Shown here piece after piece: positions 33,268-64,000 of a stretch of 64,000 bases of DNA. Source of the stretch: Hysterangium stoloniferum (lineage: Eukaryota; Basidiomycota; Agaricomycetes; Hysterangiales; Hysterangiaceae). The notes beneath the pieces were generated by a model. It worked only from the letters and a program-made list of their open reading frames with translations, did not search any database and had not been told where the DNA came from. Made by a program: the position numbers and the translations under genes. The stretch lies in assembly GCA_015178975.1 (NCBI GenBank), contig WHVD01000106.1, positions 62,001 to 126,000 on the forward strand, in the 5' to 3' direction. The stretch's first letter is position 1. Every line of letters begins with the position of its first letter.

Positions 33268-33395
33268 AAATTGGTGGACGTTCTGGGAAATCTTGCTTTC
33301 AATCTATCGTTGCAGCAATCTTTCAGTAATTCACTTATATTCTGGATCAAGGCTTTCATCCCGAACAACAAGAAATTAAATCAAGGTTAAATCAA

Positions 33396-36300
33396 GTGAC
33401 TACCAAGTTACAACAGCTTTCCTCGAATCAATACATTACTCCCTATATTCCTATAACACCCATTCCTCCTTCGAATACACCTACTCTACTACCACCTCTT
33501 AGTATTCGATACACCTTCGGTAGGAGCCGCAACAATCCTATCATGTCAAAAACATCAAGTATACAACCCGAACGGGAGAGATCTATTTCTCCTAACAGAC
33601 CCATTACCCCAAAAGCATTCCGCCATCTTAATGTCACCATTCCAGACAGTCCTGTCCTTAGCTTCTCTGGTACACCTCAAAAGCACCAACCGAGAAGTGA
33701 CAGAGCAAGACCAGGTGATCTTACCCATCTCTATCCCAGCACAATCCAATTGAGGAGGTTGTATGAGCCTTCATTTGAGGATAAGGCTAGAAGAGATGTT
33801 ATTCTAAAGATTGGTACTAAATATATTCCAAAAGAAGATAGGCTTCCTTCAATGCCTTTGCCAATTCCTGCAGAAAGGGTGGCAACCCATGCTCTCTATT
33901 TGATGAAGGACTTGTTAGTTGGAGTACCCAGTGAAGAGAATAGGAATTTACCTGCAGATCAGGCAGGCTATTACATTGACCCTGGCTGCTATGAGATACT
34001 GTCTGATATACTCCTTGAACATATTCAGACAGCTTCTCCACTATTAGAAGCCAAGGGCTTACCTATTCCAAATGTTCCTATCTGGGGACCAAATAATGAT
34101 CCTCGTGAAGCTTGGGGCCAGGGTGATTTTGAAGTCATCTCAGTCCTTTACCGTGAGGAAGTGGAGAATACACTTGCCTATCTATATTCACATGATTCTC
34201 TGATGCCTATGGGAACGACTCAAGCACCACAGCCTGTGGCTTCCTCCCCCAGGATCAGATCTGAGGGGATTAGGCAAACACCCTCTCCATTACCAACCAG
34301 TGACCAACCTTTAGAAATCATTCACTCAACTCCGAAGCAGCTCACAAGCGAAATTAGATTTGAATTGCCACCTCCAGAGGCACCTTCAAATCACAAAAGT
34401 CAAGCTGCACAAGGAGATGAAGTTGATTCTAATATTATACAGCATGAAACCAAGCGAAGTGTACCCTTGTTTGAAGAACATGGATTTCAAGATGCTAAAA
34501 AGAAGGCATCTGAAGAACTATTCAGTCCACATTCAAGTATCACTTCACCATACAATGACTTGCCTGCATATATGTCAGAATCTAGGAGACTATCAGAGCT
34601 ACTTCAAGATCCTCAAGAAAGAAGGACTGTGGAGAAGAGGAGTTCATTGCCTCATACTCAAGTAGCTTCGGGAGATCCTCCTTACGAACCTCCTAAAGAG
34701 CCCCCTGACCGAAACAACAGTGGACATCATTTCCCTCATGACCCTGACAGAGATAGACGTACTTCATATCGGAGACCAATCAGGCCAAGTTTCTTTGAAA
34801 ATCGAAATCTCCCTTATGGAGGAGGTCCTCCAGGTGGTGGAGATGATGACCCCTATGATCCAGGTGGTCCTAAAGACTTCAATAATCTGAACCGTGGAAA
34901 AGGCAAGCCACTTGACTTTACAAACTCTAAAGGCATTCAAGAAGCACATTTCGACTTGAAACTGAAACCCGAAATCATTCCTAAGTGGGATGGTGATCCT
35001 GATACATTGTCAAAATGGATTTTCAAGATCAATAACTTGTCGGAACAAAGTAACTACATTTTCAAGCAACTAGGACAACTAGTACCTTTAAGACTTGAGA
35101 AGGATGCAGACTTATGGTTCTGGTCATTGCCCACCGATTATCGTCGTGAAATTACAGCTTCTTGGAGTACTTTGAGACGAGCCATTTGTGTGTATTACAT
35201 GAACCGGTCCTGGCTTGATCGTCAAAAGGGCCGAGCCAACAAAGCAAGCTACCGAGAATCAGGTCATTCAAGCGAATCACCAACGACTTACTTCATACGC
35301 AAATCAGAGCTCTTGAGTATGGTCTATCGATTATCAGACTCTGAAATGATGATGGAAGTAATGAATGGTGCACCTGAATTTTGGTCTACAATTTTGGATA
35401 CACATCGATGTAGAACCTTGCGCGAGTTTGCTACTGCCATCAAACATCATGAACAAGCACTTCAACACTCTCCTTTCGGATCACAGGACTCTTCAATTGA
35501 AAGGCGCCTGAAGCAAGTTGAACAGTCAATTCGCCAATCAAAGGGTCCTTCTTCAAATCGTAATCAATTCCGGTTTGCAAGGTCGAACTTAATAGGTTGG
35601 AGTCCCAATATCGGAAAACCTCAGTTCCCAAGGGATGACTCTATTGTCTCTAAGGGGAATACTCCGGAATCCAAGAAGGCTAGGCCCTGTCGACACTGTG
35701 GCAGTCCAAAGCACTGGGACTATGACTGCAAGTACTCTCGGAAGGGAACGAAAAATGTTAGGGCCAATTTTGCTAGCCAAACTGATGAAGATGTTCAAGC
35801 TCAATCAGAATACGATGAACTGTACTACAATTGTTCCTCAGAGGATGAAGACTCCCATCAGTCAATACAGGAATCCTCAGAGTCAGGGAATTTAATCAAC
35901 CTTGATTCTGACTCCTCCGATTCAAATACTTGTGAAGCTTTCAATGTATGCAGAACTGTTAAACTGGATTCAAGTCCAAACAGCCAGTCTTTAGAACCTC
36001 AGTCTATACAGAGGGGATTAGAGATTGAACACTCATTTCCTAACAACACTCCTATACATCAAAAGGCTTCTGAGCAAAAGCTTCAACGCAAAATGCTTAA
36101 TGGAATTTTCAATGTCAAAAACTATATTATAAAACTGGCCAATTCAACGAAGAAAGAAATCTTTTCCTTACCCAAACTAATGGCCAGGCCTCCTGGATGT
36201 GCATTCCTTGGAGCACAAGCCACTTCGGCCAAAGGATGGCTAGGATGTTATGGCCAGAATCCAACTAAGATCATTGTAGACTCGGGTGCAGACATTTCAT

Positions 36301-37994
36301 TGATATCACACTCTACCTTATCTCGACTTGATAATCCTCCAAAGATCAAGAATGGACAGCGAGTCAATCTGATTCAAGTAACTGGAGCATCAACTATATC
36401 AGGATTCGTTTCATTGCCCGTCTACTTTGACACAGATGAGGGACCAGTGGAGTTAGTCATTGAGGCTTATGTAGTCAAAGGAATGACTACTCCTTTTATC
36501 ATTGGAAATGACTTTGCAGATCAGTATGCAATCTCAGTCATCCGAGGAGAAGAGGGTTCAACTTTGAATTTTGGTTCAAGTGGAAGATCTATCAAAGTCG
36601 AAAACTCTATTGGGCCAATGTTGCAGGATGAAAAGGGTCAAGCATTTCAAGTTAAAGTAACTCCCAAGCTTTCAGACCTGACTGCAAAATTCAAGGCCCA
36701 TCGAAAGAACAAACGAGTCAAGAAGACACTTCAAAACAGAGAAACTGATAATTCTGTGCGATCTGTCATTGGTATTACTATATCTCCAGAGTCAATCAGT
36801 GCAGTTCCTGTGTCACTGACCTTTCCTGAGAAGTCAGACATAGCATATATTGAGAAGATTATCTTATCCAATCGAGGTGATCAAGACTTTTATGCAGCAC
36901 CCGATTCTATCATCACTCGGAAGAATCCACACTTATATGTTTCGAACTTTTCGAGTTTTCCAGTGCATATACATGAAGGTCAAATACTAGGCTATTCACA
37001 TAATCCTGAATCTTGGTTGGATAGTCATGAGCATTTAAGTGAAGAACAACTTAACAACTTAAGTGCTCATGCCTATCTAGTTAAGAGTATTGCCAATCAA
37101 CTCTTGAATCCTAAATACAACTCAATTGACGAACCAAATGTTGAAGGAGAATCAGAAGGTGGGCCCAAAACTGCAGAACCACCCCCTGAAGACATTAGCT
37201 CTGATAAGTTCTTTGAAGAGATCGACATTAGCAAGGACTTATCTCTGGAGCAAAAGAAGCAGTTAAAGTCAACACTCTGGAATAATCGTCTTGCATTTGG
37301 ATTAGATGGAAGACTTGGACATTATCCTGCAAAGGTGGAAATCAATTTACGAGAAGGAGCTAGAGAAATATCAATGCCTCCATTCTTTGCTTCACCCAAG
37401 AGCAGAGGAGTTATAGATGAACAGATGGACAAGTGGATTAAGCTGAAAGTAATCGAACCTTCTCAGAGTCCATGGGGTGCTCCAGCATTCATAACATATC
37501 ATCAGTCCAAGCCTAGAATGGTTATAGACTATCGTCAACTCAATGCACAAGTCATCCCGGATGAATTTCCATTACCACGTCAAGATGATATTCTGCAAGC
37601 ATTATCTGGATCACAATGGCTATCAACTCTGGATGCACTAGCAGGTTTTACACAGTTAGAAATGGCATCTAGAGATAAGGAGAAGACAGCCTTCAGGACA
37701 CATCGAGGTCTTTATCAATTCTTAAGGATGCCATTTGGATTTCGCAATGGACCAGCTGTGTTTCAAAGAGTCATGCAAAATGTTTTGGCACCCTTCTTAT
37801 GGATATTCACCTTGGTTTATATTGATGACATTGTAATCTTTTCAAAGACCTTTGAAGATCATTTAAACCATGTTGAATTGGTGCTTCAAGCAATCATAAC
37901 CTCACGTCGTCTTCCCAATCAACATCTTCCGACTCTAACATTTCTTCCAACTTTTCTCCGCCCAGTAATGTTGCGACGGCTTCTTCTTCAATGA
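33396..37994 (+). CDS. Gypsy Gag-protease-RT polyprotein, truncated after the RT active site
   Basis: 1532 residues from the first ATG downstream of the LTR. Residues 1-450 are proline/serine-rich and without recognised domain. A retrotransposon gag domain follows (about 510-720, with DADLWFWSLPTDYR and SWLDRQKGRA). The zinc knuckle CRHCGSPKHWDYDC lies near residue 765. The protease active site is IIVDSGADISLIS near 960. The reverse transcriptase shows MVIDYRQLNAQVIPDEFPLP, RMPFGFRNGPAVFQRVMQ and the catalytic LVYIDDIVIFSK near 1474. Shortly after, the frame changes character and ends RRLLLQ. In the next frame the same DNA reads SPPSNVATASSSMIDMEEE to a stop, which looks like the true C-terminus of the parent protein. 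A deletion joining the RT palm to that tail therefore explains the missing RNase H and integrase. Confidence 0.88.
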   Translation: MTTKLQQLSSNQYITPYIPITPIPPSNTPTLLPPLSIRYTFGRSRNNPIMSKTSSIQPERERSISPNRPITPKAFRHLNVTIPDSPVLSFSGTPQKHQPRSDRARPGDLTHLYPSTIQLRRLYEPSFEDKARRDVILKIGTKYIPKEDRLPSMPLPIPAERVATHALYLMKDLLVGVPSEENRNLPADQAGYYIDPGCYEILSDILLEHIQTASPLLEAKGLPIPNVPIWGPNNDPREAWGQGDFEVISVLYREEVENTLAYLYSHDSLMPMGTTQAPQPVASSPRIRSEGIRQTPSPLPTSDQPLEIIHSTPKQLTSEIRFELPPPEAPSNHKSQAAQGDEVDSNIIQHETKRSVPLFEEHGFQDAKKKASEELFSPHSSITSPYNDLPAYMSESRRLSELLQDPQERRTVEKRSSLPHTQVASGDPPYEPPKEPPDRNNSGHHFPHDPDRDRRTSYRRPIRPSFFENRNLPYGGGPPGGGDDDPYDPGGPKDFNNLNRGKGKPLDFTNSKGIQEAHFDLKLKPEIIPKWDGDPDTLSKWIFKINNLSEQSNYIFKQLGQLVPLRLEKDADLWFWSLPTDYRREITASWSTLRRAICVYYMNRSWLDRQKGRANKASYRESGHSSESPTTYFIRKSELLSMVYRLSDSEMMMEVMNGAPEFWSTILDTHRCRTLREFATAIKHHEQALQHSPFGSQDSSIERRLKQVEQSIRQSKGPSSNRNQFRFARSNLIGWSPNIGKPQFPRDDSIVSKGNTPESKKARPCRHCGSPKHWDYDCKYSRKGTKNVRANFASQTDEDVQAQSEYDELYYNCSSEDEDSHQSIQESSESGNLINLDSDSSDSNTCEAFNVCRTVKLDSSPNSQSLEPQSIQRGLEIEHSFPNNTPIHQKASEQKLQRKMLNGIFNVKNYIIKLANSTKKEIFSLPKLMARPPGCAFLGAQATSAKGWLGCYGQNPTKIIVDSGADISLISHSTLSRLDNPPKIKNGQRVNLIQVTGASTISGFVSLPVYFDTDEGPVELVIEAYVVKGMTTPFIIGNDFADQYAISVIRGEEGSTLNFGSSGRSIKVENSIGPMLQDEKGQAFQVKVTPKLSDLTAKFKAHRKNKRVKKTLQNRETDNSVRSVIGITISPESISAVPVSLTFPEKSDIAYIEKIILSNRGDQDFYAAPDSIITRKNPHLYVSNFSSFPVHIHEGQILGYSHNPESWLDSHEHLSEEQLNNLSAHAYLVKSIANQLLNPKYNSIDEPNVEGESEGGPKTAEPPPEDISSDKFFEEIDISKDLSLEQKKQLKSTLWNNRLAFGLDGRLGHYPAKVEINLREGAREISMPPFFASPKSRGVIDEQMDKWIKLKVIEPSQSPWGAPAFITYHQSKPRMVIDYRQLNAQVIPDEFPLPRQDDILQALSGSQWLSTLDALAGFTQLEMASRDKEKTAFRTHRGLYQFLRMPFGFRNGPAVFQRVMQNVLAPFLWIFTLVYIDDIVIFSKTFEDHLNHVELVLQAIITSRRLPNQHLPTLTFLPTFLRPVMLRRLLLQ

Positions 37995-45271: not shown

Positions 45272-45524
45272 TGTTAGAGTATGATACTACAGCTCTAACA
45301 TAGTCTATTATGATCTCCATATTTTTCTGATATTTGTAGTATTTTTCCCAGCACTGTAGGTGCAGTATTGAGTGAGTTACCTTAGGTCGGTACCTCCTGT
45401 ATAGGTGCTTAGATAAGCACCTAGTAGTATAGTCCACTGTGGGTGTGGGAAAGTCTCCTTAGTGTTTACTTTCCAATCACACTCACAGGGGTGTTCTGCA
45501 AAGTGTTATTCAACTGTTTCAACA
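45272..45524 (+). repeat. Copia B 5' LTR
   Basis: 253 bp, TGTTAGAGTATGATACTACA at the start and TTCAACTGTTTCAACA at the end. Contains the short palindrome GGTGCTTAGATAAGCACC (45412-45429). Confidence 0.92.
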
Positions 45525-45537
45525 GGTTATGGGCCCC
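45525..45537 (+). promoter_or_regulatory. Copia B primer-binding site
   Basis: GGTTATGGGCCCC directly after the 5' LTR, identical to the site in copia A although the two elements have unrelated LTRs. Complementary to the initiator tRNA-Met anticodon region. Confidence 0.75.
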
Positions 45538-46121
45538 GGTTTCTAAACTGCTACATCCAGTTGCTATCTGTGCAATCCATCACTTCCCACATCTTTATTG
45601 ACAACTTCTATTATCCAAAACACTTTACATTGCGTTTGGATCTTATTTGTGGTCATATCTCTGTGGTTTGGCACTTGTTTTGGTCACTTTCTGCACTCAC
45701 CCCACCCCCCTGCCCTTGCGCGCATTTTCGCTTATTAAGCGCCCGCTTAGCGCCGGTTGCCGTATAAGGAAATATATTTCCACGCCCAAAAGTCAAAAAC
45801 CCGGTCATCCAATTTTCATTTTTAGGTCAACATATTTTTTGTCACTCTTGTGACGCCTTGTGACTCATCTGTCACACTCCCTCCTACCATTTCTGGAACT
45901 TTCCAGTGTTGTCTGCCACATTATTTTATCTTTTATCACAGGGTCTTTTTATATACATTGGATTTGAACTGTTGGCATAGTGCATTTCAGTGAGCCTGTG
46001 TTTTTTACCTTCCTTGCAACATTACGGTAACCCTGTTGAGCAAGGCGGTGTTACAACTGCTTCTCCAATTAATTAGTCCTTCTTGATACACAGTTAAATT
46101 CTTGGTGGATATTGATCTATC

Positions 46122-46697
46122 ATGGCATCCAACAATACTTACAAGCACCATAGTGTTATTTTGGGAGAGTCAAATTATGAGGATTGGAATCATGATCTTA
46201 TTGGTTTATTGCATATGGAGAATTGCCTTTCCATTGTCCTTGGAAAAGAAAAACAGCCCAATGATGTTAAACTACTTACATCCTGGTTGGAACGCTCTAA
46301 CAAAGCAGCTGGTATTATTTGGCGCTCTATTGGATCTATCCAGAGCAGTCATATTGATATTAATGATGCTCCTAATGATATGTGGTTGAAACTTCATCAG
46401 GCACATTCTACTTGCACCTTTTGCAAGCGTCACTGTCATATACAGAATAATTGCCATCTTTACAAATTTGCACAGAAGAAGGCATTAAAACAAGTGGAGC
46501 AGAAGAAGAGGAAGCATAAAAGGAGAAAGGTAGCCAAATACATGCTAGTGTCTCTGATAAAGTCTCAGAAGAGAAACAGCCAGAGTCTGCTGGAAATGCA
46601 AGTACTTGCATTCCTGATTCTTCTGATCCATCTTGTGCTCTCCTTGTTCATGCTAGTTCTGATTGGACAGCTGACACAGGTGCATCTTCCCATATGA
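46122..46697 (+). pseudogene. Copia B gag, shortened
   Basis: Begins MASNNTYKHHSVILGESNYE, followed by DWNHDLIGLLHMENCLSIVL, the start of copia gag. The middle of the usual gag domain is missing: after WLKLHQAHS the frame passes straight into the zinc knuckle CTFCKRHCHIQNNC, so about 100 residues appear deleted. A lysine-rich stretch follows (KKRKHKRRK). From about 46570 the frame drifts into non-coding phase while the parallel frame encodes the protease (see pol). Confidence 0.8.
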
Positions 46698-49600
46698 CAC
46701 CACATCGTCACTGGTTTTCAAGCTATAAACCATTTCAAATTCCTATTCAAGTTGCAAATGGACATATCATTATGTCTGCAGGAATAGGAGCTGTGCGGTT
46801 TAAGCCTAAAGGCAAAGGCAATATAATTTTTGAATTTCAAAGAGTTCTTCATGTTCCCCATCTCACAAGCAATCTACTCTCAGTCTTGTACTTGACAAAG
46901 AAAAAGAACTACCATGTTTCTATCTTTGGTTCTACTATGTCTTTCTATCAGAAGAAGGTTTTGCGTTTCACTGCAACTGTTAAGTTCCCGAACAAAGCTC
47001 CACGGATAGTCCCGCGGAGGTTTCCGGTAACTATTCCGAACACACACTTGCTTCCGGGAAATAGTCCCACGGGGTCCCCGGGCAATAGGTCCCGGGAAAG
47101 TTCCGGGGATTATTAGTACAAGGAACGGTGATATCAGAATAATTACCAGAAAGTCTGGTGATACGACTGAGATGGACTTGGCTTCAGCTTATAGGCTGCG
47201 CCCTCGTACACTCATTCGGGTGTCCATATTTCGAGCTGACAGAATGCATACAGGAAGGTATAGATTCCGGAGTTCCCGTGGGAGTTCCAGGAATCGAGTG
47301 TGCAGACAGACAAGAGGACTAGAGACTGTTCAAGGATCAAACTTGTTCGGGGGAAAACTAGTTCGAGATTGAAACTGGATTCTAAGTACATGAATATAGC
47401 AGACTTATATAGACTGTGAAATGTAATAATACCAAATCTGGTATTAATGAGAGGCAGAACTATTAAACATAAAACGAAACAAGTAAATACTAAACTGGGA
47501 ATAGGGACGGAACGGAATGGGAGCGGAGAACGAATCATGACAGATCATTTAACCATAACTGGAGCGGGGCTCAGTTAGAGGGGTTCCGGAAGTCCGGTCA
47601 GAGTCCGGTGACTTGGTGCACAAGATAGTGTCGGGTATAGACAGGCTTGATGTGCAGGAGGTCCGGTGGAGTCCGGTGGGTTTTCCAATGACTGGTGTGT
47701 GAGATACAGAGACAGATAACAGGAGCAGGGTTCTATGCTCTGTTAGAGGGGTTCCAGGAGTCCGGTCGGAGTCCGGTGACTGGTACATATGACACAGAGT
47801 GTCGGGTGTACATAGAGTGAAGTCCGGAGTCCGGGGAGTCAGAGGACTGGTGTATGAGACATTGAGGGGTAGGTGCAGACAGGTGGGGTGCGTACAGAGA
47901 GTCAGGCATAAACAAGTTGATGTACAGGGTCCCGTGGGAACTCCGGTTGTTACTATACAATATAGAGGGTCGGGAGCATGTAGGATGGGGTCCGGGGGCC
48001 CGGAGGCCGGCGGGGTTTCCGGTTCCTGACAGCAACAGTCAATGAACAGAATCAGGCCTATTTAGATGGAATTACAGTACCTATGACAGATTATGCTGGT
48101 CTTGTTACAACCTGTCCATTAGACTCTACACTTTGGCATTGTCGTTTCAGTCATCTGAATCATGCTGATGTTAAGAAGCTTATGACAGGGGATTTGGTCA
48201 CTGGTATTCAGATTGACTCTCAGATTGCTCCAGATCCTATTTGTGAACCTTGCTTAGCTGGTAAACAGAACAGAGTGGTTAATAAGATGGCGACAACACG
48301 CTACACTAAACCACTTGCACTCATTCATAGTGATGTTCATGGTCCATTACCTACACAAACTCTAGAAGGGTTTCGCTATTGGGTAACCTTCATTGATGAT
48401 GCCTCACGCTATGCTATGACTGCATTACTCAGAAACAAGAGCGATGTATTTGAGGCTTTTAAGCTATACAAGGCTAGTGTTGAAAATAAACTTGGTCAGA
48501 CGATTAAGATTTTTAGGGATGACAAGGGTGGAGAGTATATATCAAAGGAATTTGATGCTTTCCTTGCAAATGCTGGCATTAGTCGGCAGCATACTGTCCA
48601 AAGTGAGCCTCACCAGAATGGTGTGGCTGAGCGCTTTAATAGGACACTGGAAGAAGGGTCCACTTCAATTTTGACTGAATCCCACCTTCCTCCTTCTTTT
48701 TGGGGACGTGCTGTTCTTGCAATTACTTATGTACGCAATCGCTCCCCTACTACTGCTCTTAAGCATTCTGTGCCCTATACTGCTTTCCATGGCAGAAAAC
48801 CAGATGTGTCAAATCTTAGGGTATTTGGATCCACTGCCTATGTACATATGCAGAAGGATCAATGTGTTGGACTTGGCTCTCACACACAAAAGTGTGTCTT
48901 CATTGGATATCCTTCAGATTATAAGGGTTGGTTATTTTACAATCCACTGACTAAAAAGATTATAGTCAGTAATAATGCTGTTTTTGATGAGAGAGTTTTG
49001 CCAGGACTATCTAAGCAGACTACACCATCACCACCACCACTATCTATTCCTAAGGTTTTTCCTGATACCCAACAATTCATTGATATGTTTATTCCTGGCC
49101 CCTCTGGGTCTACTCAGGTGGGAGCTCCACAGGAACCAAATCAGGTGGGAGATGATCAGGGTAATGCTTTGGCTCCTGATTCAGGCTCTAGCTCTGATTC
49201 TGCTTCTGAGCATTCACCAAGTCCTCCCCCTCAACCACGTCGCAATCCACCCAGAAACAGAGTTCCTCCTATGTGTTACCCTGCTAACATCCACAACTAT
49301 AGAGAATCTACTCCTGTAGTTGAGTGCAGTGATGAAGCAGAGGATTCTGTACCAGCTTCTCCTCAACCAGTGGAGTCTGAGGAGGAAGCTCTAGGTGCCA
49401 GTGAAGGAGATCTTTATATCTCTGTAGATGAGGCCTTTGAGTTTGCTTACAAGGCTAGTGCCAATGATAATGCACCTAGAACTCTCAAAGAGGCCTTGAA
49501 AAGTCCTGATGCTGACAAATGGTATGATGCTGCATATGCTGAAATGCAATCTTTGCTTGAAAATGGCACCTTTCGTCTTGCCAAATTACCTGAGGGTCGT

Positions 49601-51027
49601 AAAGCTATTGTCTCTCGTTGGGTATTTGTAATAAAGCGTAAAAAGGATGGCTCAATTGACAAGTTCAAAGCTCGTCTTGTTGCCAAAGGCTATGCACAGC
49701 GACCAGGGTTTGACTTCACTGATACCTTTGCTCCTACTGCCAAATGGACCACCTTACGTGCTGTTCTAGCTTTGGCTGCACTAGAGGATATGGAACTTGA
49801 GAGTATAGATATCTCTTCTGCATTCTTAAATGGTGAACTTGAAGAGGAGGTGTACTTGCAACAACCTGAGGGTTTTCACCAAGGTGCTCATGATGAGTTT
49901 TTACTTCTCTTGAAAGGACTTTATGGTTTACGTCAATCACCACATATCTGGCACAAGAAGTTGAATGCTGTCTTGCTCAGCTTGGGTTTCAAACAGGTAC
50001 TATGTGATCATAGTATTTGGGTCTTCCAAAAGGGTGATGTCAAAGTCATTATACCAGTATTTGTAGATGACATGACTATTGCATCTAAGTCCAAGGAGGC
50101 TATCAAGAAGCTCAAAGATGATCTAAAGAGCCACTTCAAATTGCATGATCTTGGTCCAATTACTTACTTATTGGGTGTTGGCATTGAACGGGACAGGAAG
50201 AAGAGAACCATTACTCTATCACAGCGGCAATACATTTTGGACATGTTACAGCGTTATGGTCTTGCTGATTGCAATCCAATTAGTACACCTATGGTGGCTA
50301 ACTTGAAATTGAGTAAAGACCAGGCTCCAGTGTCCCCTGAGGAGATTGCATATATGAAGGACATTCCATACATCCATGCTGTTGGGTCTCTTATGTATTT
50401 AGCTATTGCCACTCGTCCAGACATTGCTTACACTGTTGGTGTATTGGCTAGATTCAATCACAATCCAGGAAAGGCTCATTGGCTAGCAGTAAAACATCTT
50501 TTCCGCTACCTCAAAGGCACCCTTGACTTGGGTTTGACCTATGGCCCTAGTAATGACAAGGAACTATTTGTGTCCTATTCAGATGCTGATCATGGAGGTG
50601 ATAAATCTACTGGAAAATCTACTGGTGCATATGTGGTTAAATGGGTACTGGAGCCATTAGCTGGCAGAGTAAACTGCAAACTATTGTTACTCTCTCTACT
50701 ACTGAAGCAGAGTATATTGCAGCAGTATCAGCAGGTGCAGAGGTATTATGGTTGTGGAACCTGTTTGAGGAATTGGGATATCCTCAAAAGACTGCATCCA
50801 CATTGTACCTTGACAACCAATCTGCTATGGCAGTTGCCAGAGATCCTGAACACCATGGTCGAATGAAGCATCTTGATTTGAGGACATATTGGTTAAGGCA
50901 GGAAGTTGATAGTGGGAAGATTAAAGTGGTTCATCTACCTACTTCAGAGATGCCTGCAGATTTATTAACCAAACCATTGGCTAAGCCAAAGGTGGAATAT
51001 TTGAGAAAACTATTGGGACTAGCATAG
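46598..51027 (+). pseudogene. Copia B protease, integrase, reverse transcriptase and RNase H
   Basis: The protease has SDWTADTGASSHMTPHRHW near 46661-46717 and continues to FTATV at 46977, where a solo LTR is inserted (to 48031); NEQNQAYLDG then continues in frame. The integrase has HCRFSHLNHADVKKL with CEPCLAGKQ, then IHSDVHGP, FRDDKGGEY and QNGVAERFNR. The reverse transcriptase has SRWVFVIKRKKDGSIDKFKA and the catalytic PVFVDDMTIASKS. RNase H starts YSDADHGGDKSTGK. At about 50640 one base is missing and the frame moves to 50641-51027 (ISWQSKLQTIVTLSTTEAEY, ending PADLLTKPLAKPKVEYL). Apart from the solo LTR, pol is thus close to intact: the shift in RNase H is its main defect. Confidence 0.9.
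46978..48031. repeat. Solo LTR of the chromovirus family (copy 2), inside copia B
   Basis: TGTTAAGTTCCCG to TTCCTGACA, 1054 bp, flanked by a perfect GCAAC duplication (46973-46977, 48032-48036). Removing it and one GCAAC restores the copia frame. It has GGACTTGGCTTCAGCTTATA with GCTGCGCCCTCG and several TCCGGTGACTGGT-like repeats, and is GC-richer than its relatives. Confidence 0.9.
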
Positions 51028-51048
51028 AGCTGTCTCATCAGGTGGGAG

Positions 51049-51355
51049 TGTTAGAGTATGATACTACAGCTCTAACATAGTCTATTATGATCTCCATATT
51101 TTTCTGATATTTGTAGTATTTTTCCCAGCACTGTAGGTGCAGTATTGAGTGAGTTACCTTAGGTCGGTACCTCCTGTATAGGTGCTTAGATAAGCACCTA
51201 GTAGTATAGTCCACTGTGGGTGTGGGAAAGTCTCCTTAGTGTTTACTTTCCAATCACACTCACAGGTATGTCTTTACAGTTGAATATACTGAGTGTTTAC
51301 TTTCCAATCACACTCACAGGGGTGTTCTGCAAAGTGTTATTCAACTGTTTCAACA
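51049..51355 (+). repeat. Copia B 3' LTR
   Basis: As the 5' LTR plus a tandem duplication near 51266-51319 that repeats GTGTTTACTTTCCAATCACA. Followed by the TATTC duplication. Confidence 0.9.
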
Positions 51356-51360
51356 TATTC

Positions 51361-51546
51361 AGAGATACAAAAAGATATAACAGGAATACAATAAGACAAT
51401 AAACCAGATGTCAAACAGGCAAAGATGGATTGGGAACAAGGGGTCCAGAATGTCCAAGTGGAGTCTGGTGGTTAGTTTGTGCAATATAGAGAGTTGAATA
51501 CCTATAGGATGGGTTCTGGGTCCCAGCAGATTTCCCAGTCCTAACA
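51361..51546 (-). repeat. Chromovirus 3' LTR, inner part
   Basis: Continues the LTR broken at 45271 and ends CAGTCCTAACA, followed by GTACCCT as at 63675. It keeps GGATGGGTTCTGGGTCCCAG-type sequence shared with 63600-63650. Confidence 0.75.
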
Positions 51547-51553
51547 GTACCCT

Positions 51554-52141
51554 TGTATGGGCCACCTCAGTAGAGCCTGTGGTACTCACACTAGACTGAC
51601 TAACAGAGGGATATCCAGAGTATATTAGGTAGCTACTAGATACAGGATAAGGACTACTCACCTAACAGAGGGATATCTAGAGAGAAAAGGATAAGGAGGC
51701 ACTGTTAGATTTTCAGGTACGGTGAGCAGTCGGAGTTGTATAGTGACTGGGGTCATTATTACCCACATTCATTACTGCTCTTGTTTTGAGTATATAATCC
51801 TGTAGTTATGCATAAGACCCCCCTATGTGTTTATAACCAACAATATCACTCAGACAGTATTGTGCTCGTCCTCTATAGGTCTGGTCATATTTTTGCTGAA
51901 AATTTAACAGGCACTTCTGCTAGATGTTCCGAAACATGGGGGTGTCTAAAAATAGAATGACAGCTTACCCTCACTGGTCCATAACTATCTACTCTATGTA
52001 TCCTAGAATATTCCTAGAGGATGGAACAGTCCTCTGAAAAATGTGAGAAAAATATAGGAAACAATATAAAATAACCTCTAAGGGTTAGTAAGTATAGACA
52101 TGACAAAAACCAAGAGACAAGACATAGAATGTCCCCTTACA
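51554..52141. repeat. Solo LTR of another retroelement
   Basis: 588 bp from TGTATGGGCC to CCCCTTACA, flanked by ACCCT (51549-51553 and 52142-52146). Removing it restores GTACCCTCCCTTTA as found next to the LTR at 63675. Its sequence is unlike the other LTRs in the window. Confidence 0.85.
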
Positions 52142-52315
52142 ACCCTCCCTTTAAGGCCAAAGTCCCAAAGAGGCCCTAGAACTTGTTAAAGTTCATCGGT
52201 TACATGTATGTGTCAAGATGTCAGGTGATCTGGAAGGTAAGGTTCAAACATGAGGAGCCTATATAAAAATTGAAAATAATAAATTTCTTCTTTCATACCC
52301 ATCAACATCCAGAAA

Positions 52316-53290
52316 TGGGAACAAAACCAATGCCATGCAAACCCACCACCACTGCCAGGACTTCCATGGGGACCATGTACCAGGCTCCATTCACAGCTGC
52401 TCAAATTCTTGATCAGCATGAGGAACAGTGGTGACAATGGGAGGAGGAAGAGAAGAAGGCAAGGGAAGAGGAGGCAGCACTGGATAAGGAGTACCAGGTG
52501 GCATTGGTCACAGGAAGAGGTGGAGGAGCAGAGGAAGGAGGAGGAGGAAGAGGCAGTTGCCAAAAAGGCAGAGACAGAGAAGGAGGCAACCCAGGTCACC
52601 ATGGGGTGCACTAAACCATCCATGGTGGCCACAGGAAAGGTAAGCCAAAATATTTTTATTTATTATTATTCTTTAAGGTCCTCACTAATGACAGTTCTGA
52701 TAGTGCAAAGCAGTGGACATGGAGATGGAGTCTGAGGGAGAGCTGGGGAGTCCTCAAAAGGTAAGTGGGCAGTCCATGGGGAATTCTTCCACTAACTTAT
52801 TATTGACAGAAGGCCTGGAAAAACACTCCAGCCTGGCTGGAGACCAAAAACAATCTGTGGTGTTCTGGTTGTCATGACTGGAATGCGGATTGCTTCTAGA
52901 AGGCTGGTCAGGGCCCAGGCTGCTGGCCTTGTGTGCACTTGAAAGCCAAGTGCTCACTAGTACAGGAAGCCTCAGTGTCTGGTTCCCAGGACATGGGTGG
53001 GCATGTGGAAAGACTGGGGGCCTTGGAGGAGGTTTTGGGGCAGATTGGGGCAGGCATAGTGGCCCAAAATGCATTGTTGCAAGAGGGCAACAATGTGTTG
53101 AAGACTCTGGTAGTAGTTTCCAGGATCTCTGTGGATTATTCTGCAAGTTTCTGAGAGACTACATGGACTATGAGGATTCTGAGGGTTCTGAGGAGGCCAA
53201 AGGGTTGGAGAAGTCTGGGGCCTGAGGAGCTGAAGGGTTTACATGAGAAATTTATAGAGGAAGGAGTACCAGGACCTGTTATAGTCATAG
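52316..53290 (+). pseudogene. Antisense accessory ORF of the chromovirus, Zn2Cys6 and coiled-coil
   Basis: The ORF runs opposite to pol, between pol and the 3' LTR. It opens MGTKPMPCKPTTTARTSMG, then TAAQILDQHEEQ, followed by a strongly Glu/Lys-rich stretch (EEVEEQRKEEEEEAVAKKAE in another frame) that suggests a coiled coil. Two introns look plausible: GTAAGC...TTTAAG (about 52639-52678) and GTAAGT...TGACAG (about 52760-52809). The next exon encodes six cysteines, 52861-52953, spaced C-x2-C-x6-C-x9-C-x2-C-x6-C, the exact pattern of a fungal Zn2Cys6 DNA-binding cluster, ending KAKC. A hydrophobic heptad-like stretch follows (GALEEVLGQIGAGIVAQNAL). Defects are a TGA at 52433, a shift near 52510 and a TAG at 52879. 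A second chromovirus has the same start at 63883. Function is unknown; DNA binding is inferred from the cluster. Confidence 0.65.
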
Positions 53291-53465
53291 ATGACTAATA
53301 GATTTTATTTTTTATTTTATTTATTTTATATGTCTTAGTAAGGTGTGAAAACCAACAGAATTTCCACTTAAGAACAAATCAACAAGTCAAAATCTGTAAA
53401 AGCAAGAGAGACAAGGAAAAAATGAGATGAGTCCAAGATATGTATGGATTCAGTGGATAATGTAG
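53291..53465. other. Junction between antisense ORF and pol end
   Basis: Short AT-rich stretch (TTTATTTTTTATTTTATTTA near 53306) between the convergent ends of the plus-strand ORF and the minus-strand pol. Could hold poly(A) signals for both; AATAAA was not seen. Confidence 0.4.
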
Positions 53466-54440
53466 CTAAAGAGAGGATAATGGGTCAGGTTTGAGTGGGT
53501 ATGCTGTTTGAAAGTCAGTGATAATCTCTGTGGCATTCCCAAGTTCCATGGCCAAAATCCAAGATGTTTCTTCATCTGTGCCCTCATAGCCCACCCACTT
53601 GACCAAGTAAACCAGTTTACATGTGCATCAATGATTATCTATCTTTGAGTCTAAAATTTGTGAGATTTCAAACTTGGGTTCTCTGTCTATAATGACTGGA
53701 TGGGGTGGAGGTTGCATGTGGTCTGGGATAGTGTTAGCAGTGCAGGGTTCTAACATAGAGACATGAAATACTGGGTGTACTGTGCAAATACTGTCCAGGA
53801 GCCAAAAGGACCATGATACAGAGCCAGCTTGTGCTATAATTTTAAATGGACCTAAATACTTTTCAGCAAGTTTTTTAGATGGATGGGTAGTCCAGAAGAA
53901 TCAAGCTTTAACAAAAATATGGTCACCAATCTTAAAGTTAGGTGGCAGAATCTGGTGTTGGTCCACTGAATGTTCATATTGTTCTTGCATGGATGTTATC
54001 ACTTTCTGGAGTTCTTGCTGGAGTTCATCAAGGTCTGTGACAAACTCTTGAGCATGGGTGGAGGCAAGGTTCTGTTCTGGGTGTACAGTGATATTTGGAT
54101 TATAACCTTTATTTGCAAAGAAAGGGGAAACACCAGTAGTGGGAGATGGTGCATTGTTGTATGCAAATTCTGCAAGGGGCAACAGGGATTTTCAATTGTC
54201 CTGTTGATAGTTGCAATATACATATGTGAAGGTATTGTTCCAATGTCTGATTGACAAACTTGGTTTGTCTGTCACTTTCTGGGTGATATCCAGACATAAA
54301 GTGTAACTTCATGTCCAAGGATTTTCTGAATGATCTAAAGAAATGAGATACAAACTTGAAACCTCAGTTGGAAGTTATGTGGGATGGGACTCTGTTCTTA
54401 GAAAATTCATGGATAATGAAAGGTGTAAGACTAGTATCTG
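53466..54440 (-). pseudogene. Chromovirus integrase C-terminal part and chromodomain
   Basis: From the right: IHEFSKNRVPSHIT, LDMKLHFMSGYHPESDRQTK and FVNQTLEQYL form the end of the integrase core, with the catalytic Glu position apparently altered (ESDRQTKFVN where ETDGQTERVN is usual). Then come PLAEFAYNNAPSPTTGVSPF and GDHIFVKA, the GPY/F-type C-terminal module. After it LVKWVGYEGTDEETSWI at 53580-53630 is a chromodomain, which in this group steers integration toward modified histones. The stop is at 53468-53466. Several frame changes occur. Confidence 0.8.
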
Positions 54441-54765
54441 CTGCAGGTGTAGACAGACACTAAAATGAGTGATGGGGAATAAAACCACTACTGTATTGAA
54501 ATCCACATGTACATAATATATACTAGTGGAGAACAATGGGATGTGAGCAACAATGGGATGTGGACTACAATAGGATGTGGACTACAATGGGATGTGGACT
54601 ACAATAGAATGTGGACTACAATGGGATGTGGACTACAATGGGATGTGGACTACAATGGGATGTGGACTACAATGGGACGTGGACAACAATAGAACTAATT
54701 ATTACCAAATCACAGTGTAGGGAGTCTCACTCCCTTACAAAGGTTCTGCTAACTGCATGGACATA
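54441..54765. repeat. 17-bp minisatellite and unassigned insert in the integrase region
   Basis: About nine units of AATGGGATGTGGACTAC (54533-54690) lie in a stretch that interrupts the integrase coding trail between MQLAEP and IHEFSK. The stretch looks inserted, but no clean target duplication was seen. Confidence 0.75.
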
Positions 54766-56395
54766 CAGTGACTCAAAAAACCCTTTGCATGTTTTGTACT
54801 TCAGACTTATATCCCTGATAACTCAAAGAATAAAAATGCAAAAATATCAAGAATATTTTTGAATATGCTCTATCATATCTAGATTATGGAAGTATGGTGC
54901 CATTACATAATCTCCAAATATGGAAATATTACAAATATTTATATACAAGAGACTCATGCGAAAGGTTTTTTTGCCGGCAACTTTGATGACTATAAATGCT
55001 TATAGTCATGTGACCTTGTTGATTGTTTACCTCCAATTAGGTTCATATTAACAAAATCATGTGATGTCACATGACCATGTTGTACTGGAGTATAAATATA
55101 TCACCTTTAGCAACTAGTAATACCCCAATTCCCAAGATGTGCACTTTGTCTCTTGCCAGCCAGAATCATATCCTCTCGCTGCTTGATGCTGGTCATTCAG
55201 CTAGCCACATTGCAGTTTATACTGGTCATAGCATTGGCACAGTCTCAAAGCTTCACTTTAAGCATTGTTCTCATCTCCCTAAGTCCATTGGTGGTCATCT
55301 CCCAAAGCTATCCCCTACCAACATTCACTATGCACAGCATCTCATCAGCTCTGGGAAGGCTGACACTGCTGTTGATGTGACCAAAGCCCTTAGAAATCTC
55401 ACCAACAGTCCATTTCTACCCAAACTGTGCACAATAATCTCAAGATGGTTGGGATGAAGGCTGTGATGAAGAAGAAAAATGCCCTTCTTAGCAAGAAGTA
55501 TAGGAAGGCAAGGATGGACTTTGCTATAGCACATCAGCATTGGATTGGTGAGGACTGGAAGAAGGTGGTGTGGTCTGATGAAACCAAAATCAACAGGTTG
55601 GGGTCAGATGGGAGGAAGTGGGTCTGGAAAAAGACTGGGGAGGGCTTGAGTAACAGGCTGGTTCAGGGGACTCAGAAGTTTGGAGGAGGATCTGTGATGA
55701 TATGGGGGTGTATGCTGTGGGAAGGACCTGGGTAGGCTTGCAAGATAGATATGCAGATGGATGGAGACCTTTATCTCAAGATTATGGAGGAGGACCTTCA
55801 AGCCAGCCTCAACTATTATGGAAAATCTGTGGATGATGTCATCTTCCAGCAAGATAATCACCCCAAGCATACTTGCAAGAAGGCCCAGACTTGATTCAAA
55901 ATAATAATTTCAATGTCCTCCCATGGACAGCATAGTCTCCAGACCTCAACCCCATTGAACACTTGTGGGATCATATCAAGAGGAGGCTGGGGGAGCATCA
56001 GGTTGAACCAAAAGAGATACTGGAGTTGTGGGAAAGGGTGGAGGAGGAGTGGAACAAGATTGATGCAGAGGTGTGTCAGAATTTGATTGAGAGTATGCCT
56101 AGGAGGGTTGCAGCTGTGTTGAAGGCAAAGGGTGGCTATACCAAGTACTGAATATAAGTAGTTTTGTGGGTCAGAGTGGTCAGCAAAAAACCCTTTGCAT
56201 GAGTCTCTTGTATATAAATATTTGTAATATTTCCATATTTGGAGCTTATGTAATGGCACCATACTTCCATAATCTAGATATGATAGAGCATATTCACAAA
56301 TATTCTTGATATTCTTTCACTTTTATTCTTTGAGTTATCAGGGATATACAGTAAGTCTGAAGTACAAAACATGTGAAGGGTTTTTTGAGTCACTG
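54766..56395 (+). mobile_element. Tc1/mariner-type element, complete
   Basis: 1630 bp from CAGTGACTCAAAAAACCC to GGGTTTTTTGAGTCACTG with TA on both sides (54764-54765, 56396-56397). Terminal repeats are about 210 bp (54766-54975, 56185-56395). Each has an inverted copy of the tip motif at its inner border (CATGCGAAAGGTTTTTTTGC near 54956; CAAAAAACCCTTTGCATG near 56183). It is inserted in the integrase region of the chromovirus. Confidence 0.9.
55137..56151 (+). pseudogene. Tc1-type transposase, frameshifted
   Basis: The start is MCTLSLASQNHILSLLDAGH followed by SASHIAVYTGHSIGTVSKLH, a paired-like helix-turn-helix. After a shift near 55430 comes MVGMKAVMKKKNALLSKKYR and the first catalytic Asp in VVWSDETKINRLGSDG. 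55735-55900 gives IFQQDNHPKHTCKKA for the second Asp. A further shift near 55900 leads to LNPIEHLWDHIKRRLG-type sequence with the catalytic Glu (55945-55990) and the end ESMPRRVAAVLKAKGGYTKY at 56151. Two or more shifts and a TAG near 55735 make it inactive. Confidence 0.85.
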
Positions 56396-56397
56396 TA

Positions 56398-57154
56398 ATG
56401 GTATCATATATGGGGATGAAAATACCTTGCTTGGAGAATCTGTCAACAATGACTAGTATTTCAGAAAAGCCTTCAGAGTCTGGTAGGTGTCCAATTAAAT
56501 CCATAGAGATGGAATTCCACAGTATTCTGGTACCAGGAGTTGCTTCAGAAGGCTGGATGGCTTGTGATGCTGTGATTTGGAGCATAAACAAGTGATGCAA
56601 GATTTACAATAGTGCTTAACAATAACAAAACCTTGGAGTCCAGGCCAAGTATGTATATTCTCTGCATAACATTGATAGAGTCTTGTTGAGCCCAAAATGT
56701 CCTGGAAGTGGGTGATTGATCATGTTTGTACGGGAAGATTCTGAGGCAGAGGCTGTTAGAGTCTGGTATATAAATGCAATCATCAACTCTAATAAAACCA
56801 TGCTGGTCTTGGGACCACTGGGGCTGGCTGGGGTCCACAGGGGTATCGGGATGTGCCTTGGTTACCAGGTCTAGTGGAATTACAGATAGAATATCTTGAT
56901 GTAAAAACTCAATATCCATAATGATAATTCCACACATGACTGGATGAATGAGGTAAGTAGCATAGACTGATGTGGTAAGTTGCAAATTCGTGAATATGGG
57001 TTTCAACTTGTGTGGGTTTGCCATGCGATAGTTGTTACTCCCCTCTTTGGGATAAATGTCCCATTGTCTAGTCAAATCATTGGGTTTTCCACCAAGGTGG
57101 CCAGGTCAAAAATGGATGATCATATTAAAGGCAGATAGGTATTCAGAACACCAA
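56398..57154 (-). pseudogene. Chromovirus integrase zinc finger and core, RNase H end
   Basis: From the right the strand resumes after the MITE with WCSEYLSAFNMIIHF and PGHLGGKPNDLTRQWDIYPK (end of RNase H). It then passes YIPDSNSLCLRI and the HHCC zinc finger region (CKSCITCLCSKSQHHKP) to SISMDLIGHLPDSEGFSEIL and VIVDRFSKQGIFIPI, which contain the first two catalytic Asp residues of the integrase core. It is cut by the Tc1 element at 56397. Frame changes occur near 56700 and 56600. Confidence 0.8.
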
Positions 57155-58025
57155 GGAGGATAGTCACACTTCATTGAATATACAAAAATTTATGGAAAAG
57201 TCCTCATATTTTTAAGTGAGACTATTTCCTTTGGCTATGACTATATGTTTTAGGAGTTTATATTTCATTACCCCAAAATTTCATCTTTAAAACCTGTATA
57301 CTCTTTTAAAATATGCACAAATGTCATGGTTAACTGTTACAACCAGAATTCTTGCCAGACTCCAGGCACTAACGTATACACACCTGTGCCCTATATGCAC
57401 CAATTGTCAGTTTACTGGAATTCCCACCAGACTCCGTACGTCAGACTTGTCCATGCTCAACTTCACTACATTGTGTATCAGTCACCGGAATACCTGCCAG
57501 ACTCCATCCCTGTCTATGTTCAACCTCATCCCACGCATCAGTCACCAGACCCCACTCGGAAATCCCATCATCCCTCTAACTGAGCCCTGTTCCTGTTTTA
57601 GTCAAATGACCTTACTACTGGATTTCCTGGAGGTTTCTCCAGAAACCCTGCATGTATGCACCCTTAACATTAACCAAAATTATTTGGGTTATGACTTAAT
57701 TTTTGGGATGAGATGCATTCTCTAGTATCTCTGTGACTTTTAAAATGACCACAAACATTATAGTTAACCAAATTGTTTACTTTAGAAAGTTAACCAGAAC
57801 TATCTGGCCAACCAATCCATGTTGTGGAATTTATCCCCAAAAGGATAATCTATATATATTTGTTTGACTAACTTTTGTCAGATACAAGATAAATATTAAT
57901 ATTTCCTTATTCTCCAGAGTATCACCTGATAGACTGAATTTGATTAAATATTAATTCTACAACCAACAATATAAATATATATACTTAAGTGGACAAATAA
58001 CTTTTAAAGTTTTGGGTTATCCTCC
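57155..58025. mobile_element. MITE copy 1 (GGAGGATA termini), with nested solo LTR
   Basis: Begins GGAGGATAG and ends TTATCCTCC, flanked by a 3-bp duplication CAA (57152-57154, 58026-58028). It interrupts RNase H between HWQA and WCSEYL. Away from the nested LTR (57335-57669) it matches copy 2 at 59666-60285. No coding capacity. TIRs are only 8-9 bp. Confidence 0.8.
57335..57669. repeat. Solo LTR of the chromovirus family (copy 3), inside the MITE
   Basis: TGTTACAACCAG to CCCTTAACA, flanked by TTAAC (57330-57334, 57670-57674). It is in reverse orientation to the other copies: its complement starts TGTTAAGGGTGCATAC and has GGTTTCTGGAGAAACC as at 62923-62938. It is shorter than the others and lacks the GACTTGGCTTC block. 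Confidence 0.85.
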
Positions 58026-59041
58026 CAAGCTTGCCAGTGGGTCAAAGGTTTCATGGTCGAAAGATATTCCAGGTTCTTGTGATATGTAACAATGTCAATT
58101 GGAATTCCCACACCCTCCAAATAGTGTCTCCATGCCTTGAAAGCTTCAAAAATTGTAAGAAGTTCTTGGTCACAGATGTCATAACTGAGCTCCAGTCCAG
58201 TAAAGGTCTGGGAGAGAAAAGCAACCAGGCACATTTCTCCATCAGAGTCCTGGATAGACAAAATGGCTCCCAACACATAATCTGAGGCATCTGTTTCAAT
58301 GATGAGTGGGAGGCCTGGTTTACAATGCAAAAGAATAGGAGCTGAAGAAAAATAATCTTTTATAAGATTAAAAGTGGCACAACACTTATCCTTGAAATTC
58401 CATGGAACATCCTTACAAGTGAGATGAGTAAGGGGGACCATGATTTTGGAATATTCATGGATAAACTGTCAGTAAAAATTGGCAAACCTGAGGAAGGATT
58501 GTATATCTTTAACCTTTCAGGATTCAGGCCAATCTTTGATGACTTGTACTTTGGCTTCATCCATCTGGAGTCTGTCAGGTCCCATGATGAAACCCAAGTA
58601 TTCCATGGAGTCTGTGTGAAAAGTATATTTTTTACCATTTGCAAAACATCCATGTTGCTAGAGTCTTCAGAGAACCTTACAGACTTGTTTGTCATGTGCT
58701 ACAGGATCCTTGGAGTAGATAAGAATGTTCTCCAAATAAACAATGACACATACATCAAGCATGTCAGAGAAGATATCATTGATAAAGTGTTGAAAAACAG
58801 ATGGAGAATTGATTAGCCCAAAAGGCATTATCAACCATTCAAAAGCTCCATAATGGGTCCAAAATATGGTTTTCCACTCATCTTCCTCAGCAATCCAGAC
58901 CAAGTGGTAGGCATGTTTGCAGTCTATCTTAGTATAGATCTGGGCATTCTGTGGAGTGTTGAGTAGATTGGAAATAATCAGGAGTGGATACTTACCTTTC
59001 CATGTGACAGTATTGAGTCCATGGAAGTCAACACATAGTCT
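58026..59041 (-). pseudogene. Chromovirus reverse transcriptase and RNase H
   Basis: From the right: LRLCVDFHGLNTVTWKGKYP (start of the RT core, normally with VDYRxLN), KIDCKHAYHLVWIAEEDEW, FEWLIMPFGLINSPSVFQHF and VIVYLENILIYSKD. The last is the catalytic block with E in place of the first D of YLDDILIYS, so activity would be lost. After a shift near 58700-58440 RNase H follows: LPLIIETDASDYVLGAILSI, FTGLELSYDICDQELLTIFE and AFKAWRHYLEGVGIP. The frame ends at the MITE. Confidence 0.85.
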
Positions 59042-59049
59042 AAGGAGGA

Positions 59050-59660
59050 TATCTGAAAACTATTAAGTATACTTAATCCCAGAAAAGATTTCAGAGTGCA
59101 AAAAAAACCTATACGTTTCACGAAGAATGGGGCACAGATCTGACCCAGTGTCAGAGTGAAAGTACTCCTTCAGGATGGTCGGCATCCATCTGTGCCTCGT
59201 CGATCACAACGAATAGAGGTGCGAATCCCACTGGAAATAAGTCTTTCCTTTTATTCATAAACTGTTTTAGCATGGAATTGATACTTGTGATCATGATATT
59301 AGTGTCAGCGTGCTGAATGGATCAAAGGATTGTCATCACCCTCCTGGGACGAGTGGGGTGGCAAAGCTTGAGCAAGAACCCATCGTCATCAAGCTACCAT
59401 AGCATCTGTGTTAAAAGGAAGGTATTTCACAAGTTGCTTCAGGACAAAGACGTGTGCAAACAACAACATTGCGAAGACGCGGTCTGCAGGTTTAGCGTTT
59501 TTGCTATGCCCATCACTGTCTCCTGTGTTCCAGGTGCTCATAGTTTGCAACATTTTCGTTGCTACATTGAAGTCGCTGGAGCCAGATGCTGGCCCTCCTG
59601 TGTTTTTGCATGAAATATAAAGGCCCCAATTCCAGCAAAAACCGTCAAGTGAAAGGCATG
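59050..59660 (-). pseudogene. P-loop NTPase-like gene fragment (DEAQ type)
   Basis: Minus-strand pieces are VFVLKQLVKYLPFNTDAMVA, then across two stops RWVLAQALPP, then PLFVVIDEAQMDADHPEG, then in the next frame DTGSDLCPILRETYRFF. Hydrophobic-VIDEAQ is a Walker B motif, and the order recalls NTPase proteins that are abundant in mushroom genomes (some linked to Crinkler-like or HS-type proteins). No Walker A was found, and several stops and shifts are present. It abuts the truncated RT of the chromovirus. Confidence 0.5.
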
Positions 59661-59665
59661 TTTTA

Positions 59666-60285
59666 GGAGGATAGTCACAAATCATTGAATACACAAAATT
59701 TTATGAAAAACTCCTCATATTTTTAAGTGAGACTATTTCTCCTGGCTATGACTACATGTTTTAGGGATTTATATTTCATTAACCCAAAATTTCATCTTTA
59801 AGACTTGTACACTCACTTAAAATATGCACAAATGTCATGATTATACAAGATTATCTGGGTTGTTACCTAATCTTTGGGATAAAATACATTCTCTAGTATC
59901 TCCATGACTTTTAAAATGTCCACAAACATTATAGTTAACCAAAATTACTTGGGTTATGACTTAATCTTTGGGATAAGATGGGTTCTCTTGTATATTATGC
60001 AAACTTTCAAATATAGTTCATATAATTTAAATTTATTTGGTTTAGAAAGTTAACCAGAACTATCTGGCCAACCAATCCATGTTGTGGAATTTATCCCCAA
60101 AAGGATAATCTATATATGTTTGTTTGACTAACTTTTGTCAGATACAAGATAAATATTAATATTTTTTTATTCTCCAGAATATTATCTGATAGACTGAATT
60201 TGCTTAAATATTAATTCTACAACAAACAATATAAATATATATACTTTAGCAGACAAATAACTTTTAAAATTTTGGGTTATCCTCC
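59666..60285. mobile_element. MITE copy 2 (GGAGGATA termini)
   Basis: 620 bp from GGAGGATAG to TTATCCTCC, flanked by TTA (59663-59665, 60286-60288). High similarity to copy 1 at both ends (CTCATATTTTTAAGTGAGAC; CTGGCCAACCAATCCATGTT). Internal part has a partial repeat of GGGTTATGACTTAATCTTTG. Confidence 0.8.
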
Positions 60286-63674: not shown

Positions 63675-64000
63675 GTACCCTCCCTTTATGCCAAAGTCCC
63701 AAAGAGGCTCTAGAACATGATAAAGTTTGTTGGCTCCACATATGTGTCAAAGAATCATATCAGTTACACATATGTGTCAAAAGGTCATGTGATCTGGAAG
63801 GTAAGGGTCAAACATGATGAGCCTATATAAAAATTTGAAATAATAAAATTTCTTCTTCTTTTTATTCCCCCATCATCTAAATGGGTCCAAAACCCATGCC
63901 TCACAGACCAACTACAACACCTGGGCCTTCCATGGGTTCTCCTTATTGGGCCCTGCTCACTGCTGCCCAAATTTTGGTGCAGTGGGAGGGGCAATGCCAA
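63675..64000. mobile_element. Second chromovirus, inner end
   Basis: Parallels 52142-52440 closely, including GCCAAAGTCCCAAAGAGGC and GATCTGGAAGGTAAG. The rest of the element lies beyond the window. By analogy its pol would be on the minus strand. Confidence 0.8.
63883..64000 (+). CDS. Antisense accessory ORF of the second chromovirus, N-terminus
   Basis: Encodes MGPKPMPHRPTTTPGPSMGS, then PYWALLTAAQILVQWEGQCQ, open to the window edge. Against the copy at 52316 the shared positions are MG-KPMP, PTTT, SMG and TAAQIL-Q, with no stop at the position of the TGA in that copy. The start codon, position relative to the LTR and orientation are all conserved, which supports a real gene. The zinc cluster would lie beyond the window. 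Confidence 0.65.

Follow-up and report, generated by a model that had tools for sequence, protein, structure and literature searches.

A predicted spliced antisense accessory gene with a six-cysteine cluster in a chromovirus lineage of Hysterangium stoloniferum

Does an LTR retrotransposon of a fungus carry, in antisense to its gag and pol, the gene of a transcription regulator? The question is raised by a locus within 64,000 nucleotides of the Hysterangium stoloniferum contig WHVD01000106.1 (GCA_015178975.1), the whole stretch being referred to here as the window. An ORF with two introns, a Glu/Lys-rich coiled coil and six cysteines had been predicted there between the pol of a chromovirus and its 3' LTR, in antisense to pol. 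We suggest that the ORF is the remnant of an antisense accessory gene with a promoter of its own, which probably encoded a nuclear regulator of the zinc-cluster type.

In the window, the relic of this gene extends over 52315-53298 on the plus strand and has three exons, with the TAA stop at 53296-53298. The antisense gene is where the original prediction placed it, but its ATG is at 52315, one base before the proposed start of 52316. Exon 1 (52315-52639) encodes a charged, Glu/Lys-rich and helix-like product, which supports this side of the prediction. An intron of 64 nt (52640-52703, GTAAGC...TAG) separates it from exon 2 (52704-52760; 57 nt, 19 aa, phase 0), and a second intron of 49 nt (52761-52809, GTAAGT...CTAAC...ACAG) precedes exon 3 (52810-53298), which contains the cysteine cluster, a linker, a helix and an acidic tail. 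The complete pattern C-x2-C-x6-C-x9-C-x2-C-x6-C is found at 52861-52953, exactly as predicted. A relaxed form of this pattern has a single match in the six frames of the window, while 40 simulated windows (first-order Markov) contained no match. The copy is dead: exon 1 has a TGA and a frameshift, the cluster contains a TAG, and another TGA follows later in exon 3. Its CpG observed/expected ratio is 0.018, whereas a young copy has 1.01. It is an old, CpG-stripped and broken relic. The start of another copy is found at 63881-64000 (plus strand), continuing past the window end. It agrees with the predicted recurrence in a second chromovirus, announced at 63883, and has one TGA in exon 1, with an exon-1 start and donor of the same kind as those of the first copy.

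The decayed pol of the host element lies on the minus strand at 53501-59059 (left edge approximate), where fragments of RT, RNase H, integrase and chromodomain were recognized by eye. The antisense gene and these fragments, in a pol that is itself interrupted, are convergent. To the left of the gene, the start of the 3' LTR (51356-51546) and the region of the sense polypurine tract (52142-52153) are also on the minus strand, and a TATA box, assigned to the antisense promoter, is found on the plus strand at 52260-52267. Since comparison with an intact element places the edge of the 3' LTR at 51546, both the TATA box and the ATG are inside the element and outside the LTR.

A 588-bp insert (51554-52141), which begins with TG, ends with CA, has ACCCT on both sides and resembles a solo LTR, lies between the chromovirus LTR and the TATA box, the ATG and the displaced polypurine tract. 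Further left, the LTR is interrupted by a copia element (approximately 45272-51355) with near-identical terminal repeats (218/218 in one alignment), whose coding region is broken by a gypsy-LTR-like sequence at approximately 47490-48060. At 54764-56397, a Tc1/mariner-like transposase ORF, recognized by eye, is inserted in the chromovirus pol between inverted repeats whose length is approximately 210-228 bp (92-96%). LTR-like direct repeats at 57154-58025 and 59665-60285, with 87-94% identity, flank an RT fragment. Elsewhere in the window, we found a further gypsy-type gag-pol at 33330-37994 (stop-to-stop frame of 1554 aa), of a different family by eye, and a tandem repeat at 21745-22074 encoding a repeated SDAVHGFV-type peptide within a longer open frame.

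One protein search of the 111 Mb genome yielded 151 matches to the antisense gene from 1274 first-look candidates, many of them spanning the whole exon without a stop. With a young copy as DNA query, at least 40 places, the query included, were found at 96-100% identity (697 candidates). The young copy L069 sits in a complete element, with LTRs of 821 bp that are identical to each other (821/821) and flanked by a 5-bp TSD (GCTGA). Both gag (438 aa) and pol (1304 aa) have stop-to-stop frames on one strand, and the antisense gene is on the opposite one, with approximately 210 nt between its stop and that of pol. The Gag is above the Pfam cut-offs for Retrotrans_gag (53.4 bits) and Ty3_capsid (33.9), and the end of pol appears chromodomain-like by eye. 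On the basis of the identical LTRs, the TSD, the gag domain and this chromodomain, the host element is a Ty3/gypsy chromovirus. Judging from the sequence, the antisense gene is present in a recently inserted element. In L042, an older copy, fragments of gag, protease, RT and integrase (by eye) are likewise convergent with the gene, and the placement between pol and the 3' LTR is borne out by the window and the intact element. Among the best 40 pol ends, at least 28 have an antisense gene match among the matches listed. Six of the other 12 were inspected and five hold the gene, open in L073 and L074 and damaged in L070, L071 and L075. In the sixth, L072 (C212:642192-642941), the start of exon 1 gives way, within the 750 nt inspected, to other sequence in place of exons 2 and 3, which resembles a helitron by eye.

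The same three-exon structure with two introns, as originally predicted, is found in the other copies. Of 26 copies parsed, exon 2 has 57 nt in 21 and 56 or 58 nt in two, is replaced in one and could not be parsed in two. Intron lengths vary (44-64 nt for intron 1, 38-52 nt for intron 2), and the signals are of fungal type: in most cases, donors are GTAAG, GTAGG or GTGAG, branch sites resemble CTGAC or CTAAC, and acceptors are C/TAG. All three exons are in phase 0 and join in frame. A stop inside intron 2 closes the exon-3 frame upstream in 17 of 19 copies (the exceptions being L060 and L065). An unbroken protein is encoded by six copies (L050, L051, L058, L061, L067 and L068, with L051 near-identical to L050), and in the five measured its length varies from 294 to 309 aa. 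Even copies only about 40% identical in protein have the three exons, the two introns and the TATA promoter in common.

The putative antisense promoter is conserved as well. The approximately 210 nt between LTR and ATG contain the TATA box and copies of ATGTGTCAAA, and can be aligned across families. The alignment covers 18 of 21 copies, the three left out having no TATA match to the pattern, and L030 is devoid of the upstream part of the region.

Selection was evaluated by dN/dS (Nei-Gojobori). In the 10 pairs formed by five young copies, the values range from 0.15 to 0.30 for exon 3 and from 0.18 to 0.44 for exons 1 and 2, and differences are commonest at third positions. Among 19 copies, the exon-3 ratio is below 0.44 in all 158 usable pairs, with a median of 0.24 (171 pairs in all, 13 dropped as saturated or too close). 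In the three pairs that can be compared with gag, the values are 0.29, 0.26 and 0.25 for gag and 0.18, 0.29 and 0.23 for the antisense gene; the other seven of ten comparisons were dropped as meaningless, and two of four stretches (L076 and L077) have no gag at the expected place. In these three pairs, the antisense gene is under purifying selection comparable to that on gag. Its synonymous divergence exceeds that of gag in all three (L058, L061, L069), which suggests exchange of parts, or recombination, between element lineages. A chance ORF is rejected by the spacing simulation, the conservation and the dN/dS values. Coding of the exon 3 stretch by the sense strand was also rejected: no minus frame is open across all 19 copies, although one is open in the three near relatives L050, L051 and L067. 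The plus frame of exon 3 is open in the 19 by choice of the copies.

These 19 copies were taken from the genome match list for the absence of a reported stop and not for their cysteines, and 18 of them keep all six (the exception is L062). The six cysteines are also kept in 24 of 25 copies of alignment A2 (the exception is L047). Copies first chosen by the cysteine pattern were not counted as evidence for it, and alignments A1 and A2 were made of copies chosen for open exon 3 frames. Both frame and cysteines are thus conserved in intact copies, and the alignment and dN/dS comparison left the original prediction unrefuted on this point.

The predicted protein has a recognizable layout. Exon 1 encodes a proline-rich start followed by a Glu/Arg/Ala-rich stretch, helix-like by composition, and the exon 2 product is acidic. 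A basic motif of KKARK type arises at the exon 2/3 junction, where the lysine is followed by KARK in 12 of 21 copies; elsewhere it is KTRK or KTRR, or has W or Q replacing a basic residue, mostly in old copies, several of which have no such motif. In the five young copies, the net charge is +7 to +10 in the cluster segment and -10 to -14 in the tail. AlphaFold2, applied to exon 3 and to the 45-residue cluster, modeled the cluster with low confidence, and the only confident part was a long amphipathic helix at exon 3 residues 67-118 (a block with pLDDT 83-95 from residue 71).

The identity of the cysteine cluster is less clear than its conservation. The spacing defined for PF00172, CX2CX6CX5-12CX2CX6-8C, is satisfied in the 18 of 19 and 24 of 25 copies mentioned above. 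In 12 copies scanned with Pfam, Zn_clus (PF00172) is the recurrent family and ranks top in eight, with chance families ahead of it in L050, L054 and L058. The scores are nevertheless below the 21-bit gathering cut-off in 11 copies (8.9-16.2 bits, E 0.012-2.2), and the remaining one, L061, has no match, whereas a genuine Zn_clus domain used as control (L001) reaches 41.2 bits. The hhalign profile comparison with five real Zn_clus domains from four loci of the same genome gave a probability of 1.9%. Members of the Zn2Cys6 family have basic residues between cysteines 2 and 3 (also seen in A3). Here, this basic loop is absent, an NDRNTE-type loop being found in its place, and a basic loop of HLKAR type occurs in the second module. 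In the best partial matches, module 1 is aligned to profile positions 15-32 (L030, L027, L015, L050, L067, L058 and L060) and module 2 to positions 1-16 (L032, L037, L010 and L054), reversing the order of canonical Zn_clus, and no best stretch spans both modules. Since the architecture of known zinc clusters is approximately two-fold, the swapped order could fold alike. Support for this is thin: natural half-cluster fragments matched Zn_clus in one of eight cases, while both halves of the real control domain were matched. The Zn2Cys6 assignment of the original prediction is therefore not established: the cysteine spacing fits and the family recurs, but the Pfam cut-off was never reached, the profile comparison is poor and AlphaFold2 is not confident in the cluster.

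NCBIfam and Pfam returned nothing above cut-off for exon 1. The PDB sequence search gave 16 weak helix-rich matches (best E 0.023). No homologue was found in a database of 5.8 billion proteins with one copy or with eight aligned copies, both queries being old copies; in the same database, the Gag of the family found four proteins, one of them from H. stoloniferum.

The gene could be a real antisense accessory gene whose cysteine module does not bind DNA but RNA or protein, for example in a particle or by restricting other copies in trans. A constraint equal to that of gag in the three pairs, the failure to reach the Zn_clus cut-off and an exon 1 that is long, charged and helix-like by composition would all suit such a role. 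We consider it rather unlikely, as there is no CCHC family among the Pfam matches of 12 exon-3 copies, whereas knuckles are matched, below threshold, in the Gag of the element itself, and the order of cluster, helix and acidic tail is that of zinc-cluster regulators. It is very improbable that the region acts only as an antisense RNA, in dsRNA formation or silencing control, with the open frame being incidental. Non-coding antisense roles are discussed for other elements in the consulted part of a review (PMC7264820), but here dN/dS is 0.15-0.44 in 20 young comparisons with a third-position excess in ten pairs, exon 2 keeps its 57 nt in most copies and the six cysteines are kept.

A host transcription-factor gene, recently captured by one element and hitch-hiking with it, would account for the introns, which are to be expected if a genomic gene was captured in antisense, and zinc clusters abound in the genome (42 Zn_clus matches). 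However, none of these 42 places coincides with antisense gene copies among the matches listed, and copies that are approximately 60% different in protein share exons and promoter, so any such capture must be ancient. A recent capture is thus improbable. The reading that we favor is still that of a self-promoted antisense gene for a nuclear zinc-cluster regulator.

By position, the gene belongs to the class of antisense accessory genes of LTR elements, from which it is set apart by the introns, the fungal host element and the cysteine cluster. In PMC7264820, no function is assigned to the members of this class. According to the sections consulted of PMC7264820 and PMC11963269, plant gypsy elements such as Grande (gene23), RIRE2 and Retand contain antisense accessory ORFs (aORF-3R), the Grande gene having its own promoter and a nuclear product. 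These ORFs share with the gene described here the orientation opposite to gag-pol, the place between pol and 3' LTR and the presence in most copies; the latter gene, unlike them, sits in a fungal chromovirus and has two introns and a six-cysteine cluster. The antisense ORFs of Retand (TRP28) have predicted DNA binding, as summarized in PMC11963269. Neither TRP28 nor SMC families are among the Pfam matches in the scans of exon 3 and exon 1 copies. In fungi, an antisense additional gene, brtn, is described for Boty of Botrytis (Zhao 2011, cited in PMC7264820 and PMC8365987), a gypsy element with a chromodomain in its pol (PMC4227169, in the part consulted). By these brief descriptions, brtn is likewise an antisense gene of a fungal chromodomain gypsy element, and they mention no zinc cluster, unlike the six-cysteine cluster found here. 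The original statement that no antisense ORF with a DNA-binding cluster is known was too strong in view of these accounts of TRP28 and brtn. Among the titles and abstract openings searched, mostly outside subscription journals, no zinc cluster encoded in antisense in an LTR element was found.

Outside retrotransposons, a counterpart could be HBZ of HTLV-1, a bZIP protein encoded by a spliced transcript. Both genes are antisense near the 3' LTR, although HBZ comes from a human retrovirus and has its promoter in the LTR. It is presented as a nuclear regulatory gene product in the relevant lines of PMC11963269, and its antisense promoter is placed inside the 3' LTR in those of PMC7264820. Pfam gave no family of bZIP type for six copies of exon 3 at E up to 1, nor for three copies of exon 1 at E up to 0.1. 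With fungal Zn2Cys6 factors (PF00172), the protein has in common the cysteine spacing, the following helix and the acidic tail, and differs from them in its sub-cut-off scores and in the swapped order of the CX2CX6C modules in the best partial matches.

As a possible target, the LTR of a young element contains five CGG-N3-CCG sites, against 0.45 expected, a number reached by none of 500 shuffles; this is one of 48 tests of spacing and orientation, and in three of these no shuffle attained the observed number. A related LTR, identical at 750 of 817 aligned bases, retains one of the five sites without change, and the differences at the remaining ones are mostly of CpG type. These sites as target of the regulator are a lead and not a result.

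Put together, we propose that, in a chromovirus lineage of this fungus, the interval from pol to the 3' LTR contains an accessory gene of opposite orientation, whose own TATA promoter would adjoin the polypurine tract. From this promoter, RNA polymerase II would make an mRNA that is then spliced, and the introns would survive reverse transcription since the genomic RNA, being of opposite sense, contains them as their reverse complement. The protein may enter the nucleus through the KKARK-type motif formed across the exon 2/3 junction, dimerize through the helix after the cluster, and bind DNA through a positively charged cluster with two zincs. It would regulate the element, most likely at the LTR or at its own promoter, as HBZ does for HTLV-1. 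More tentatively, and we would sooner doubt this than assume it, the product could be an element-encoded, spliced antisense factor with swapped CX2CX6C modules, a counterpart of HBZ acting on CGG-rich LTR repeats and perhaps on nearby host genes. Given the high copy number, LTRs at many places in the host genome could be targets of such a protein. With introns, clear selection, recent mobility and a regulator-like build brought together in a fungal antisense accessory gene, it is now directly testable whether retrotransposons encode their own transcription factors.
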